Assembly: GCA_027459665.1 (NCBI GenBank)
Contig: DAIDHN010000005.1
Span: forward strand, 1-64,000
Origin: Chthonomonadaceae bacterium
Lineage (GTDB): Bacteria; Armatimonadota; Chthonomonadetes; Chthonomonadales; Chthonomonadaceae
Length of the DNA: 64,000 bases
Direction: 5' to 3'
A model generated the notes under the pieces. The model did not search any database. It saw only the letters and a list, made by a program, of their open reading frames with translations, and had not been told where the DNA came from. A program made the translations under genes and the position numbers. Below, piece by piece: positions 13,452 to 60,193 of this stretch (position 1 is its first letter; the number at the start of each line of letters is the position of its first letter).

Positions 13452-14464
13452 AACTGGGTTTCCGGGGTGGAAGCCCGCATCAGTCTGTCGCGCACGGCCT
13501 CCCATTCAGGCGCCTCGGGCGGCAGAACAGCCACAATGTGCGTAGCGCCGCCAGCATCCAGCGTATGCAAAGCACTGTAGAGCAGCGCGGCATACCCTTC
13601 GGCTGTTTCAGACAGGCAGAGCAGAGGTATTTCGCCTGCGTTCATTTGCTGCATGGTAAGCAGGGCCGGTTTCGCCCCCTGCTGCAGCAGCTTTTCAGCC
13701 AGCCGCAGGGCATTTTCTGGCGAAGCCAGCAGCAGCGAGGCACGCGGGGCATAGTGGCGCGCCATCATGCCCGGTGCAGGCAGCGCAGCATCTGCGGCAT
13801 GCTGCGGGGTGGTACGCACTACGGTTCCTATGCAGCTTTCTATTTCAGAAACAGAGAGCAGGCCGGGGCGCAGCAGCACGGGCGCAGGAGCGGTGAGGTC
13901 GAGAACGGTAGATTCTATGCCCCCTGGGGTTTGGCCACCATCCAGCACCAGTGCAATGCGCCCGTTTAGGTGCTGCATTACATGCTGGGCGCTGGTGGGT
14001 GATATGCCATTGGAGCGGTTGGCGCTGGGGGCCGCTACAGGAACTTCTGCCTTTTGCAGCAGCTGAAGGGCATCGGGATGCGCAGGCACGCGCACTCCCA
14101 CGGTATCTCCGCCGCCGGTAACAGCATCTGGTATCAGCGGCGAACGGGGCAGCACCAGGGTAAGAGGCCCGGGCCAGAAACGCACGGCAAGCAGTTCTGC
14201 AGCCTCTGGCCATGCGCTCACCAGGGGCAGCGCTGCCTCTTTTGCAGCCACATGCACTATCAGCGGATTGCGCGAAGGGCGCCCTTTTGCCGCGTAAATT
14301 GCTTGCACTGCTTCGCTGTTTGTGGCGCATGCGCCCAGCCCGTACACGGTTTCTGTGGGGAAAGCTGCCAGACCTCCTTCCCGCAGCACGCGCGCTGCCT
14401 CTTGCAGACTGGCTTCCCTGTGCAGCGGGTCAAGCGAAAGCAAACGGGTTGGCAGTGGTTTCAC
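13448..14464 (-). CDS. tsaC: L-threonylcarbamoyladenylate synthase
   Basis: A 338-residue protein of the long (Sua5) form: a YrdC domain (about residues 18-205) plus a C-terminal Sua5 domain. It makes threonylcarbamoyl-AMP from threonine, bicarbonate and ATP, the first step of the t6A37 modification of ANN-decoding tRNAs. Motifs include FPTETVYGLG, the KGRPSRNPL loop that binds substrate phosphate, and PSANRSNGISPTSA. The start is a GTG that overlaps the mqnE stop by 4 bases, and its own stop overlaps the hemW start, so mqnE-tsaC-hemW is a coupled operon. Confidence 0.95.
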   Translation of the reverse strand: MKPLPTRLLSLDPLHREASLQEAARVLREGGLAAFPTETVYGLGACATNSEAVQAIYAAKGRPSRNPLIVHVAAKEAALPLVSAWPEAAELLAVRFWPGPLTLVLPRSPLIPDAVTGGGDTVGVRVPAHPDALQLLQKAEVPVAAPSANRSNGISPTSAQHVMQHLNGRIALVLDGGQTPGGIESTVLDLTAPAPVLLRPGLLSVSEIESCIGTVVRTTPQHAADAALPAPGMMARHYAPRASLLLASPENALRLAEKLLQQGAKPALLTMQQMNAGEIPLLCLSETAEGYAALLYSALHTLDAGGATHIVAVLPPEAPEWEAVRDRLMRASTPETQL

Positions 14465-15615
14465 ACGGCAGCAGGCTCTGCTGCTTCAGCCCCCACTTCT
14501 CTGTAAAGGCTGTCGCGTTCTACGGGAATGCGCCCGGCTTCTTCTATCATGCGTATCATTTGCGGCCGGGTAAGCACCTGCCGCTTGTTGCCTGGCTCAT
14601 CGTCTTTGTAGGTAATTTCATATTCATGCACAGTGCCGTCCACATCATCTGCTCCATACCAGAGGGCGGTCTGGGTAACCTGGGGCGTATTCATGATCCA
14701 GAATGATTTGATGTGGCTGAAGTTGTCTAGCATGAGCCGGCAAAGTGCAATGCTGCGCAGGTCATTGTAGCCGGTAGTATGCGGAATGTGTTCCAGTTCG
14801 GTGCCTTCCGGGTGAAAGGCCAGCGGGGTCATGGTGATGAAGTGGCCGGTTTCGTCCTGCAGCTCCCGCAGCCGCACCAGATGCTCCACGCGTTCCTGCG
14901 GGGTTTCTATGTGGCCGTAAAGCATGGTGGCATACTGTGTAAGACCTGCCTCTGCCACTGCCCGCGCAACATCCATCCATCCTTCCCCATCCAGCTTTCT
15001 GTCAAACAGCTCGCTGTGCACCCGTTCAGAGAGTATTTCAATGCCTCCCCCCGGCAGCGAGTCGAGGCCGGCTTCTTTCAGTTCCTGCAGGGTTTCTGCC
15101 AGCGGTTTACCCGCCTGCCTCTGTATTTCCACAATTTCAACCATAGTAAACGCTTTTATGTGTACGCCGGGTCGCGTTTCTTTCACGGTGCGCAGCAAGT
15201 CAAGATAGTACTGATAGGGCAGGCGGGGGTTGATGCCTCCCACCATATGTACTTCGGTGATGGGCACATCCATGTGCTGCAGCAGTCTCTCGCGAACGGT
15301 TTGCAGGCTCATTTCATAAGGGGCGGGGCCGCCTTTTTTTGCGTAGAACGAACAGAATTTGCAAAACTTGTTGCAGATATTGGTGTAGTTGATGTGCTGG
15401 TTGCGCACGTAGTACGCCTTTGCGCCATGTCTTTTTTCACGCACCAGGTTAGCCAGCCAGCCCATGCCCCCCAGATTGGGTGAAAGCGCAATGCGCACTC
15501 CCTCTTCATATGAGAGCCGCTGCCCTGCTTCCACCTTCTCATAAATATCCATCCAGTCTGCACCAAGCATATTTTCCGCAATTTTTCGCACACCGGTATT
15601 TTCTGCTACTGTCAT
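14461..15615 (-). CDS. mqnE: Aminodeoxyfutalosine synthase (menaquinone, futalosine route)
   Basis: A 384-residue radical SAM enzyme that joins 3-[(1-carboxyvinyl)oxy]benzoate with SAM-derived adenosyl to give aminodeoxyfutalosine in the alternative menaquinone pathway. The cluster ligands are Cys81, Cys85 and Cys88 (CNKFCKFC). Family motifs include VHMVGGINP, DSLPGGGIEI and MLYGHIE. The length matches MqnE. MqnC, its closest relative, also carries CxxxCxxC; MqnE is favoured by the SFYAKKG motif and full-length alignment features. It is the first gene of the mqnE-tsaC-hemW run and shows that the organism makes menaquinone by the futalosine route. The remaining mqn genes are outside this window. 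Confidence 0.93.
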   Translation of the reverse strand: MTVAENTGVRKIAENMLGADWMDIYEKVEAGQRLSYEEGVRIALSPNLGGMGWLANLVREKRHGAKAYYVRNQHINYTNICNKFCKFCSFYAKKGGPAPYEMSLQTVRERLLQHMDVPITEVHMVGGINPRLPYQYYLDLLRTVKETRPGVHIKAFTMVEIVEIQRQAGKPLAETLQELKEAGLDSLPGGGIEILSERVHSELFDRKLDGEGWMDVARAVAEAGLTQYATMLYGHIETPQERVEHLVRLRELQDETGHFITMTPLAFHPEGTELEHIPHTTGYNDLRSIALCRLMLDNFSHIKSFWIMNTPQVTQTALWYGADDVDGTVHEYEITYKDDEPGNKRQVLTRPQMIRMIEEAGRIPVERDSLYREVGAEAAEPAAV

Positions 15616-15791: not shown

Positions 15792-15820
15792 TTGACAAAT
15801 CCCCTGAGTCATGTTATACT
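15792..15820 (+). promoter_or_regulatory. Near-consensus sigma-70 promoter with extended -10
   Basis: TTGACA (15792-15797), a 17-base spacer, and TATACT (15815-15820) preceded by TGT make an extended -10. This is one of the two best promoters in the window. It drives the frameshifted Cys-rich gene and the paralogous membrane protein gene behind it. The same hexamer plan, with a TTTACA -35, the same 17-base spacer, a shared CCCTGA in the spacer and the same TGTTATACT, precedes the second paralogue at 60.2 kb on the other strand. Confidence 0.85.
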
Positions 15821-15873
15821 GCAAAAAGCAATGCGCAAACATAGGCAGCACACACTGCCGGGAGGTCAAGATC

Positions 15874-16243
15874 ATGACATCAATCACCCCCCCCCCGCAC
15901 CCGCGGGGAGGATGTTTCTTTTGTAGCAGTCTGCATACTCATAAGTCTACTTGCCATAGCTGGCGCAGCAGCGCTTCGGTTTCCCGCCCCCTGGGGTGCA
16001 GCGCCTTTCTGCCGCACTCTGCAAAACTCACTTGAACCACCCTGCCACCCCTGTGCAGTGGGAGCATGCCCTGCTTCTGCAAATGTCCAGCCCAGTCACA
16101 GTATCGCCTGCAGCGCCGACCAAACTTCCTGTGAGATGTACCCAGCCATTGAGTATACCTATCCGGGCGGCAGCACTTGCACAGCCATCACCCAGTGTAC
16201 AGGTGGAAATCGGGTGCCTGGCCACTGCATCATCGGCAACTGA
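15874..16243 (+). pseudogene. Cys-rich exported protein gene, frameshifted at a 10-C tract (pseudogene or phase-variable)
   Basis: An ATG with a GGGAGGT site upstream begins a frame that ends after 54 mostly nonsense residues. Removing one base from the 10-C run at 15887-15896 joins the first codons to a frame open to a TGA at 16241-16243, giving a protein of about 122 residues. It has a short charged N-terminus, a hydrophobic export segment (VAVCILISLLAIAGAAAL) and a tail with about nine cysteines. That second frame has no usable start of its own: a TGA at 15875 closes it upstream and its first GTG lies at 16058. A near-consensus promoter precedes the gene. It could be a slipped-strand phase-variable gene in the OFF state, a young pseudogene, or a sequencing error in a homopolymer. 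Confidence 0.7.
15887..15896 (+). repeat. Homopolymer of 10 C within a coding start region
   Basis: Ten consecutive C, thirteen bases after the A of the ATG at 15874. With 9 (or 12) C the frame continues into the Cys-rich protein; with 10 it ends early. Tracts of this length near a start codon are typical slippage sites in contingency genes. Confidence 0.95.
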
Positions 16244-16266: not shown

Positions 16267-16923
16267 ATGGAGGAAGAGAGCAAACGCCGCAGCCTTCGCC
16301 GCAGAGCGCTGGCCGGGGTGTGCCTTGCCCTTGTGCTCGCTGTGCTGCTGGGTGCGGGGCGGTGGGTGTACGAGCGCTATGTGCCTTATTCTATTGAAGT
16401 CAGCAAGGTTCCCTCTGCTGCCAAAGAAAAGCAGATAGAGCAGGCAATGAAGCGCATAGGCGATGCCTGGCTGCGGTACAAGCCAACAGCCGCCCAGCTT
16501 TCGGCTACCACCCTGGGAGTTTACTACCTCAAGGATAGTTTAGCAGGTCGCATGTTACAGCATCTCCATCTCGATTCCAGCATAATGGAATATAACACTG
16601 GCAAGCGTTATCCCAGTCGCTATGGTTTAGTCTGCAGAGAGTTTGAGCAGCACACCAACCGGTACTACCACGATGGCAGGCAGGTAAGCATTACCCGCGG
16701 TTTTTGGCTGGTATACGACTCAAAAACGCGCAGCGTGCTGCACATTCCAGCCTGGCAGGTGCACTGGGCGCCTTCATATCAGGTCCAGAAGCCAACTCTG
16801 CACTCAGCAGGCGGGTCACAGGGTAATTTTCAACTCCCGCTGTTTCCCAACGATCCACGGTATGCCGACCTCTATGCCCACACCACCAACGGCAGCATAC
16901 CTGGCGTAAACATAGTAGAGTAG
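16267..16923 (+). CDS. Single-pass membrane protein, window-specific paralogue family (copy 1)
   Basis: A 218-residue protein of no family I recognise. A charged N-terminus is followed by one membrane segment (about residues 14-31), then a domain expected outside the cytoplasm with the motif VSKVPSAAKEKQIEQAMKRI and a distinctive NGSIPGVNIVE end. A protein encoded at 59397-60005 on the other strand shares most of these residues, including the KRIGDAWLR, ITRGFWL, TRSVLHIP and PGVNIV blocks. The ATG is set by GAGGGAGG 5 bases upstream. It follows the frameshifted Cys-rich gene by 23 bases and likely shares its promoter. Function unknown; the export topology suggests a cell-envelope role. Confidence 0.85.
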   Translation: MEEESKRRSLRRRALAGVCLALVLAVLLGAGRWVYERYVPYSIEVSKVPSAAKEKQIEQAMKRIGDAWLRYKPTAAQLSATTLGVYYLKDSLAGRMLQHLHLDSSIMEYNTGKRYPSRYGLVCREFEQHTNRYYHDGRQVSITRGFWLVYDSKTRSVLHIPAWQVHWAPSYQVQKPTLHSAGGSQGNFQLPLFPNDPRYADLYAHTTNGSIPGVNIVE

Positions 16924-59396: not shown

Positions 59397-60005
59397 CTAC
59401 TGTACTATGTTGACCCCGGGAGTGCTGCCGTTGGTGGTTCGGGCATAAAGGGATGCATAGTGAGGATCATTGGGAAATACATACATGCCGATTTGCCCTT
59501 CTGTTAGATGTACCTGTGAAACGGGAATGTGCAGCACGCTGCGCGTTTGCGTGTCATATGCCAGCCAGAAGCCGCGGGTAATGCCAACTGTCCTGCCGTT
59601 GTGGTAATGCGTGTTTATCTGCTGCACAAAGTCACGGCAGAGCAGAACATAGCGGCTTGAGTAGTTTTTGGCATCGTAGTTTTCACATATGTCGTGGTCA
59701 AGATGGCACTGCTGCACCTTTCGACACGCAAGACTGTCTTTCACGCCATAAACCCCCAGCCTGGTAGCAGCAAGCTCTTTTGCAGTTGGTTTACAACGCA
59801 GCCAGGCATCGCCTATGCGCTTCATTGCCTGCTCAATCTGCTTCTCTCTGGCGGCAGAAGGAACTTTGCTGATATGAACGTAAACCGGGATATTCTCCTG
59901 ATATTTTCTTTTGGCCACAATCAGTGCAATAGCCAGTGCAAGCACACAGCACAGCCCCATAAGCGCTCTTCTAAAGTACCGTGTGAGCTTGACTTCTTCC
60001 TGCAT
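59397..60005 (-). CDS. Single-pass membrane protein, window-specific paralogue family (copy 2)
   Basis: A 202-residue protein homologous to the product of 16267-16923. It has one membrane segment (about residues 13-32), then the shared domain with SKVPSAAREKQIEQAMKRI in pieces, KDSLACRK, ITRGFWLAYD, TRSVLHIP and an end PGVNIVQ. Compared with copy 1 it lacks about 10 residues near the end of the soluble domain and carries extra Cys. The ATG at 60005 has GGAGGG upstream. Its promoter matches that of copy 1. No Cys-rich partner could be found upstream. Function unknown. Confidence 0.85.
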   Translation of the reverse strand: MQEEVKLTRYFRRALMGLCCVLALAIALIVAKRKYQENIPVYVHISKVPSAAREKQIEQAMKRIGDAWLRCKPTAKELAATRLGVYGVKDSLACRKVQQCHLDHDICENYDAKNYSSRYVLLCRDFVQQINTHYHNGRTVGITRGFWLAYDTQTRSVLHIPVSQVHLTEGQIGMYVFPNDPHYASLYARTTNGSTPGVNIVQ

Positions 60006-60193
60006 GGCGCTACCCTCCCTGGCACAGCAAATGCCGGCATGATGCAGCTGGCATGCATCACCTGGTTGCAAAACAGCGGCAGCAGGGCGGTTGAGACGGG
60101 TTTTGCAGCCTGCGGCAGTACTGAGCTTGCAGGGGCAAAGCGAAGTCCTCTTGGCAAAACATGCGCCGTTTTCTGTTTTACACCTGAATTTGT

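Follow-up and report, generated by a model that had tools for sequence, protein, structure and literature searches.

The locus described here raises the question of why a small gene, seemingly for an exported cysteine-rich protein and equipped with a promoter, a ribosome binding site and an ATG, should lie out of register with that ATG across a run of ten C. The window, meaning the whole stretch of 64,000 nucleotides of Chthonomonadaceae DNA that was analysed, holds no other run of C or G of eight or more, and this one begins 13 bases past the start of ATG 15874. As a string it is about what chance gives for this composition (three overlapping matches to C8 were found in the window versus a mean of 2.67 in dinucleotide-shuffled windows), and it is the placement of the tract that needs explaining. 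The features concerned are the following.

15792 to 15820, plus strand: sigma-70-type promoter TTGACA-17-TATACT, its -10 preceded by TG, found by consensus scan (11 of 12 matches).
15860 to 15865, plus strand: Shine-Dalgarno sequence GGGAGG, read from the sequence and the same in a paralogous copy on contig C24.
15874 to 16035, plus strand: frame translated from ATG 15874 in the present register (the putative OFF product), 53 codons and then a stop.
15878 to 16243, plus strand: open frame of the predicted exported cysteine-rich protein, with an export segment and 10 Cys, in a register other than that of ATG 15874.
15887 to 15896, plus strand: C10 tract, where slippage is proposed; the genome has 13 C/G runs of at least 10, this one included.
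16267 to 16923, plus strand: partner gene with its own Shine-Dalgarno sequence (GAGGGAGG); the 218-aa product has a single membrane segment at the N-terminus.
59397 to 60005, minus strand: another partner gene, the third copy, at 60% identity.
60058 to 60162, minus strand: truncated cysteine-rich remnant adjoining the third partner copy, without a C-tract but with the motif CRxLQNxxxPPCxxC retained.

An initial annotation had read the locus as a possible phase-variable gene, and the promoter, ribosome site, ATG and C10 were all placed as it claimed. Its 122-residue frame with an export segment is also present, although the cysteines number ten rather than about nine, nine of them lying downstream of the hydrophobic segment VSFVAVCILISLLAIAGAAAL. 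The frame is shut upstream by the TGA at 15875-15877, as had been stated, and is open as far as 16243; it lacks an early start, but its earliest ATG, GTG or TTG is GTG 16058 at codon 62, and not at codon 51. An internal start was rejected, there being none of these codons ahead of or inside the export segment. The third frame through the tract, from ATG 15831 to TAG 15924-15926, was likewise set aside, since that ATG is without a Shine-Dalgarno sequence and its frame terminates shortly past the tract. A possible hairpin, CCCCGC-ACCC-GCGGGG, occurs right at the end of the tract (15893-15908) and is kept in the C24 paralog. The adjoining gene (14461-15615) encodes a radical-SAM protein, CofH/MqnE-like, whose closest named relatives, at 75–79% identity, are from Chthonomonadaceae and include a Chthonomonas calidirosea MAG.

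The cysteine-rich product is probably exported or membrane-anchored, presumably at the cell surface and with disulfide-linked cysteines, and may act together with the membrane protein of the adjoining gene. Searches of the order and of 61 relatives gave no homolog of either protein beyond their own genome, the weak matches (E ~1e-3) being taken as chance, and Pfam, NCBIfam and PADLOC yielded no usable result on the proteins of the window. AlphaFold2 models made from single sequences (mean pLDDT 50 and 46) were confident only in the helix at the N-terminus. A scan of genome contigs with the partner protein gave no match; two other places in the genome (L045:1521-1581 and L046:1279-1833) were noted for a C-terminal piece (RYAALYARTTNGSLPGV) and for what may be a distant relative of the 218-aa partner.

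Contig C24 repeats the whole unit of promoter, ATG, cysteine-rich frame and 218-aa partner. Its tract is C8-T-C4, three bases longer than C10, so that the offset from the ATG is identical, and with its T interruption it is probably the more stable of the two. From the ATG to about position 16075 the two copies differ by the tract and one substitution alone, the latter being synonymous in the cysteine-rich frame. Beyond that point they have diverged, with the cysteines conserved and a 3-nt indel, and the differences fall 10/17/29 over the three codon positions, with pN 0.22 versus pS 0.63; the remaining two frames of this half contain stops and have no such codon-position pattern. Because of this pattern, the low pN/pS and the stops in the other frames, the cysteine-rich frame is, by its substitution record, that of a protein under purifying selection, as seen in the 3' half. 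This selection does not prove use in the present register, since the 5' half looks recently homogenised. The initial annotation had suggested aligning the tract in related genomes. Orthologs of another tract gene, described below, do keep their poly-C, but the cysteine-rich family is confined to its own genome, and for this orphan family the comparison comes down to the C24 paralog with its 3-nt difference.

The genome (a 3.67-Mb draft in 118 contigs) was considered as a whole, with C/G runs of at least eight listed and nearly all of them retrieved. Oriented tracts were scored as start-proximal if they had a Shine-Dalgarno sequence and ATG no more than 50 nt before them and opened into a frame of 100 codons or more. 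Among oriented tracts of nine or more (9–12), 9 of 34 satisfied this, against 8 of 666 tracts of 5–7 in the same sequence (Fisher P 9e-9), and with gene families collapsed the figure for long tracts was 7 of 30 (P 7e-7). C/G runs of 8 and 9 are about threefold below Markov expectation, whereas runs of 10–12 are not depleted (13 observed versus 7.4 expected). The C10 of the cysteine-rich gene belongs to this genome-wide set enriched at gene starts. Start-proximal tracts turn up in no fewer than seven unrelated families whose downstream frames are intact, and every tract gene has an export signal immediately past the tract; in one family the signal is of the Tat type and RHS-like sequence comes after it, with a G10 copy in register and a G12 copy out. 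All three registers are found among the tract genes. Of the 14 examined in this genome and in relatives, 12 have the long frame out of register with the best-placed start, both offsets being represented, and a few of these also offer another upstream ATG in the long frame, though in a poorer position. Only two are clearly in register, which is below the one third expected at random, but not significantly so. The present register thus hides most of these long frames from their best start codon, and automatic annotation misses such proteins. A loss of mismatch repair was rejected as the cause, since both MutS and MutL are intact.

Some long tracts in the genome show other behaviour. Two tract loci (among L054 and L059 on contigs C20 and C79, and L066 on C71) match an intact family member up to the end of the tract, with 5' identity of 93.6% over 188 bp and 100% over 77 bp, and differ directly past it; in L054 the similarity returns further along, as though sequence starting at the tract had been lost. 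Recombination or deletion may have its break points at long C/G tracts. Two further tracts, a C9 (L062:1493-1501) and a C10 (L056:1506-1515), are close to the 3' ends of long frames, and the former directly precedes a C-terminal segment resembling a PEP-CTERM-type anchor, so that tract length could alter the C-terminus of the protein.

Tracts at comparable places also occur in other Armatimonadota. The tract gene on contig C79 has orthologs of 59–63% identity in three species of another genus, where poly-C runs of 9, 10 and 7 occupy an unchanged position. In two more distant Armatimonadota species, a shared gene carries C11 (G178, out of register) or C10 (G183, in register). The flanks match fully for 100 bases on the upstream side and 150 on the downstream side, and over 2366 aligned bases there is no gap other than the tract; the pairs G200/G201 and G200/G197 show a C9/C10 difference. 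Slippage predicts one-base differences of this kind, with the caution that draft assemblies may err by one base at just these places. One exported tract protein from a distant member of the phylum has weak dockerin, DUF6531 and RHS repeat matches, below Pfam cut-offs. A scan of 291 genomes of the phylum for the pattern SD-ATG-C9, with the reversed pattern as control, gave a clear excess for the genome studied here, with 8 matches (4 tracts) versus 0 for the control, and a few further genomes likewise stood out, but the 291 genomes taken together showed none that was obvious; any wider claim rests for this reason on the conserved examples. In the single-contig genome G002 (L104), two C14 tracts lie 73 bases apart, shortly past a Shine-Dalgarno ATG, with a relative of the Tat-signal tract family downstream of them.

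The explanation that best accommodates these observations is that C10 is a candidate simple-sequence contingency site, that is, a site of phase variation, to which we assign a probability of roughly 0.7. The strong promoter and ribosome site would cause translation to begin at ATG 15874, while slipped-strand mispairing on the C-tract during replication would change its length, and with it whether ribosomes enter the cysteine-rich frame or stop at about 50 codons. In the assembled state the cysteine-rich gene would be OFF, and C10 would be just one of a set of tracts placed ahead of exported-protein genes. The partner product is expected in either state, since its gene has its own ribosome site. 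Switching of the cysteine-rich gene would presumably be reversible, and a mixed population could be of benefit; with MutS and MutL intact, the rates may be moderate. As in known contingency genes, the homopolymer lies in the 5' coding region behind a Shine-Dalgarno sequence and start codon, and an intact frame, selected in its 3' half, continues past it. One-base, register-changing length differences among relatives occur in other tract genes of the phylum. The strongest support for phase variation, and for the initial annotation's reading, comes from beyond the window, in the start-proximal enrichment, the orthologous tracts and the one-base differences between sister species. Counted against it are the interrupted C24 tract, the intact MutS and MutL, by which slippage should be slowed, the low (though not significantly low) share of in-register tract genes, the restriction of the cysteine-rich family to its own genome, and the truncated third copy.

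Recoding is an unlikely alternative, in which RNA polymerase or the ribosome slips on the C-tract and yields some cysteine-rich protein while the DNA stays unswitched. The identical offset of both copies, the possible hairpin past the tract and the out-of-register state of most tract genes would all agree with it, but orthologs differ by single bases, and the direction of shift is not the same across homologs among the tract genes. A one-direction programmed ribosomal shift is excluded as the common mechanism because both offsets and the in-register state occur; slippage by RNA polymerase, being independent of register, is possible. Slightly less likely again is a dead gene, in which a fixed frameshift reached both copies when their 5' halves underwent gene conversion, the intact frame being a recent memory of function. 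Near-identical 5' halves beside diverged 3' halves are what gene conversion would leave, the third cysteine-rich copy is truncated, and two other tract loci are deleted directly behind the tract. Set against this, the cysteine-rich frame is stop-free in both copies with promoter, Shine-Dalgarno sequence and ATG retained, the sole 5'-half substitution is synonymous in it, and start-proximal tracts precede intact frames in seven or more unrelated families. The selection on the 3' half may predate the frameshift, the 5' halves looking gene-converted.

A one-base sequencing or assembly error in the tract of a gene that is truly in register and non-variable had been taken as the main rival, and runs of ten are indeed error-prone in a draft of 118 contigs. 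Error alone is nevertheless the least probable of the explanations, and quite improbable, because the C24 paralog carries the same offset with an interrupted tract of shorter runs. Nor would such error explain why long tracts sit beside the start codons of exported-protein genes across the genome, and even a wrong length would still leave a start-proximal tract of about nine.

Homopolymer phase variation has been studied chiefly in host-associated bacteria. Its mechanism is well known from them, and what is new here is its apparent occurrence in a phylum for which we found no earlier report, a literature search of partial coverage combining phase variation with Armatimonadetes, Armatimonadota or Chthonomonas having returned none. 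We give somewhat better than even odds to the wider proposal that Armatimonadota hold widespread poly-C/G switches past the start codons of exported-protein genes (cysteine-rich, RHS/dockerin-like and unknown families), kept across genera despite intact mismatch repair, as a phasome evolved outside host-associated bacteria. If true, environmental lineages whose mismatch repair is intact would also have evolved bet-hedging with exported proteins, and the tract set supplies specific loci that have orthologs in several species and are open to test in metagenomic reads already available.

Among known systems, the 5' homopolymeric tracts surveyed by Orsi et al. (2010, PMC2831843), with Listeria inlA as the example, were described as a general device for gene inactivation. 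The present tracts resemble them in lying near the coding 5' end, where a one-base change gives a short truncated peptide, but the surveyed tracts were poly-A or poly-T and mostly of seven bases or fewer, whereas those described here are poly-C/G of 9–12 and focused on exported-protein genes. GeneTack clusters (PMC3711429) include frame-shifted genes with a repeat at the junction that were classed as phase variation, many of them encoding surface or secreted proteins, and the present gene resembles them in being out of frame with a repeat at its junction; the main text of that paper makes no mention of Armatimonadetes. Closest are the poly-C/poly-G contingency genes of Campylobacter and Helicobacter, with coding G/C homopolymers of about 8–12, several per genome, and intact frames in or out of register whose products are mostly surface or exported proteins (PMC6321876, PMC8355987, PMC2823697). 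Unlike these, the present candidate set comes from an environmental, mismatch-repair-proficient member of the Armatimonadota and involves unnamed exported families; it has in common with them several long C/G tracts per genome ahead of intact frames for exported proteins.
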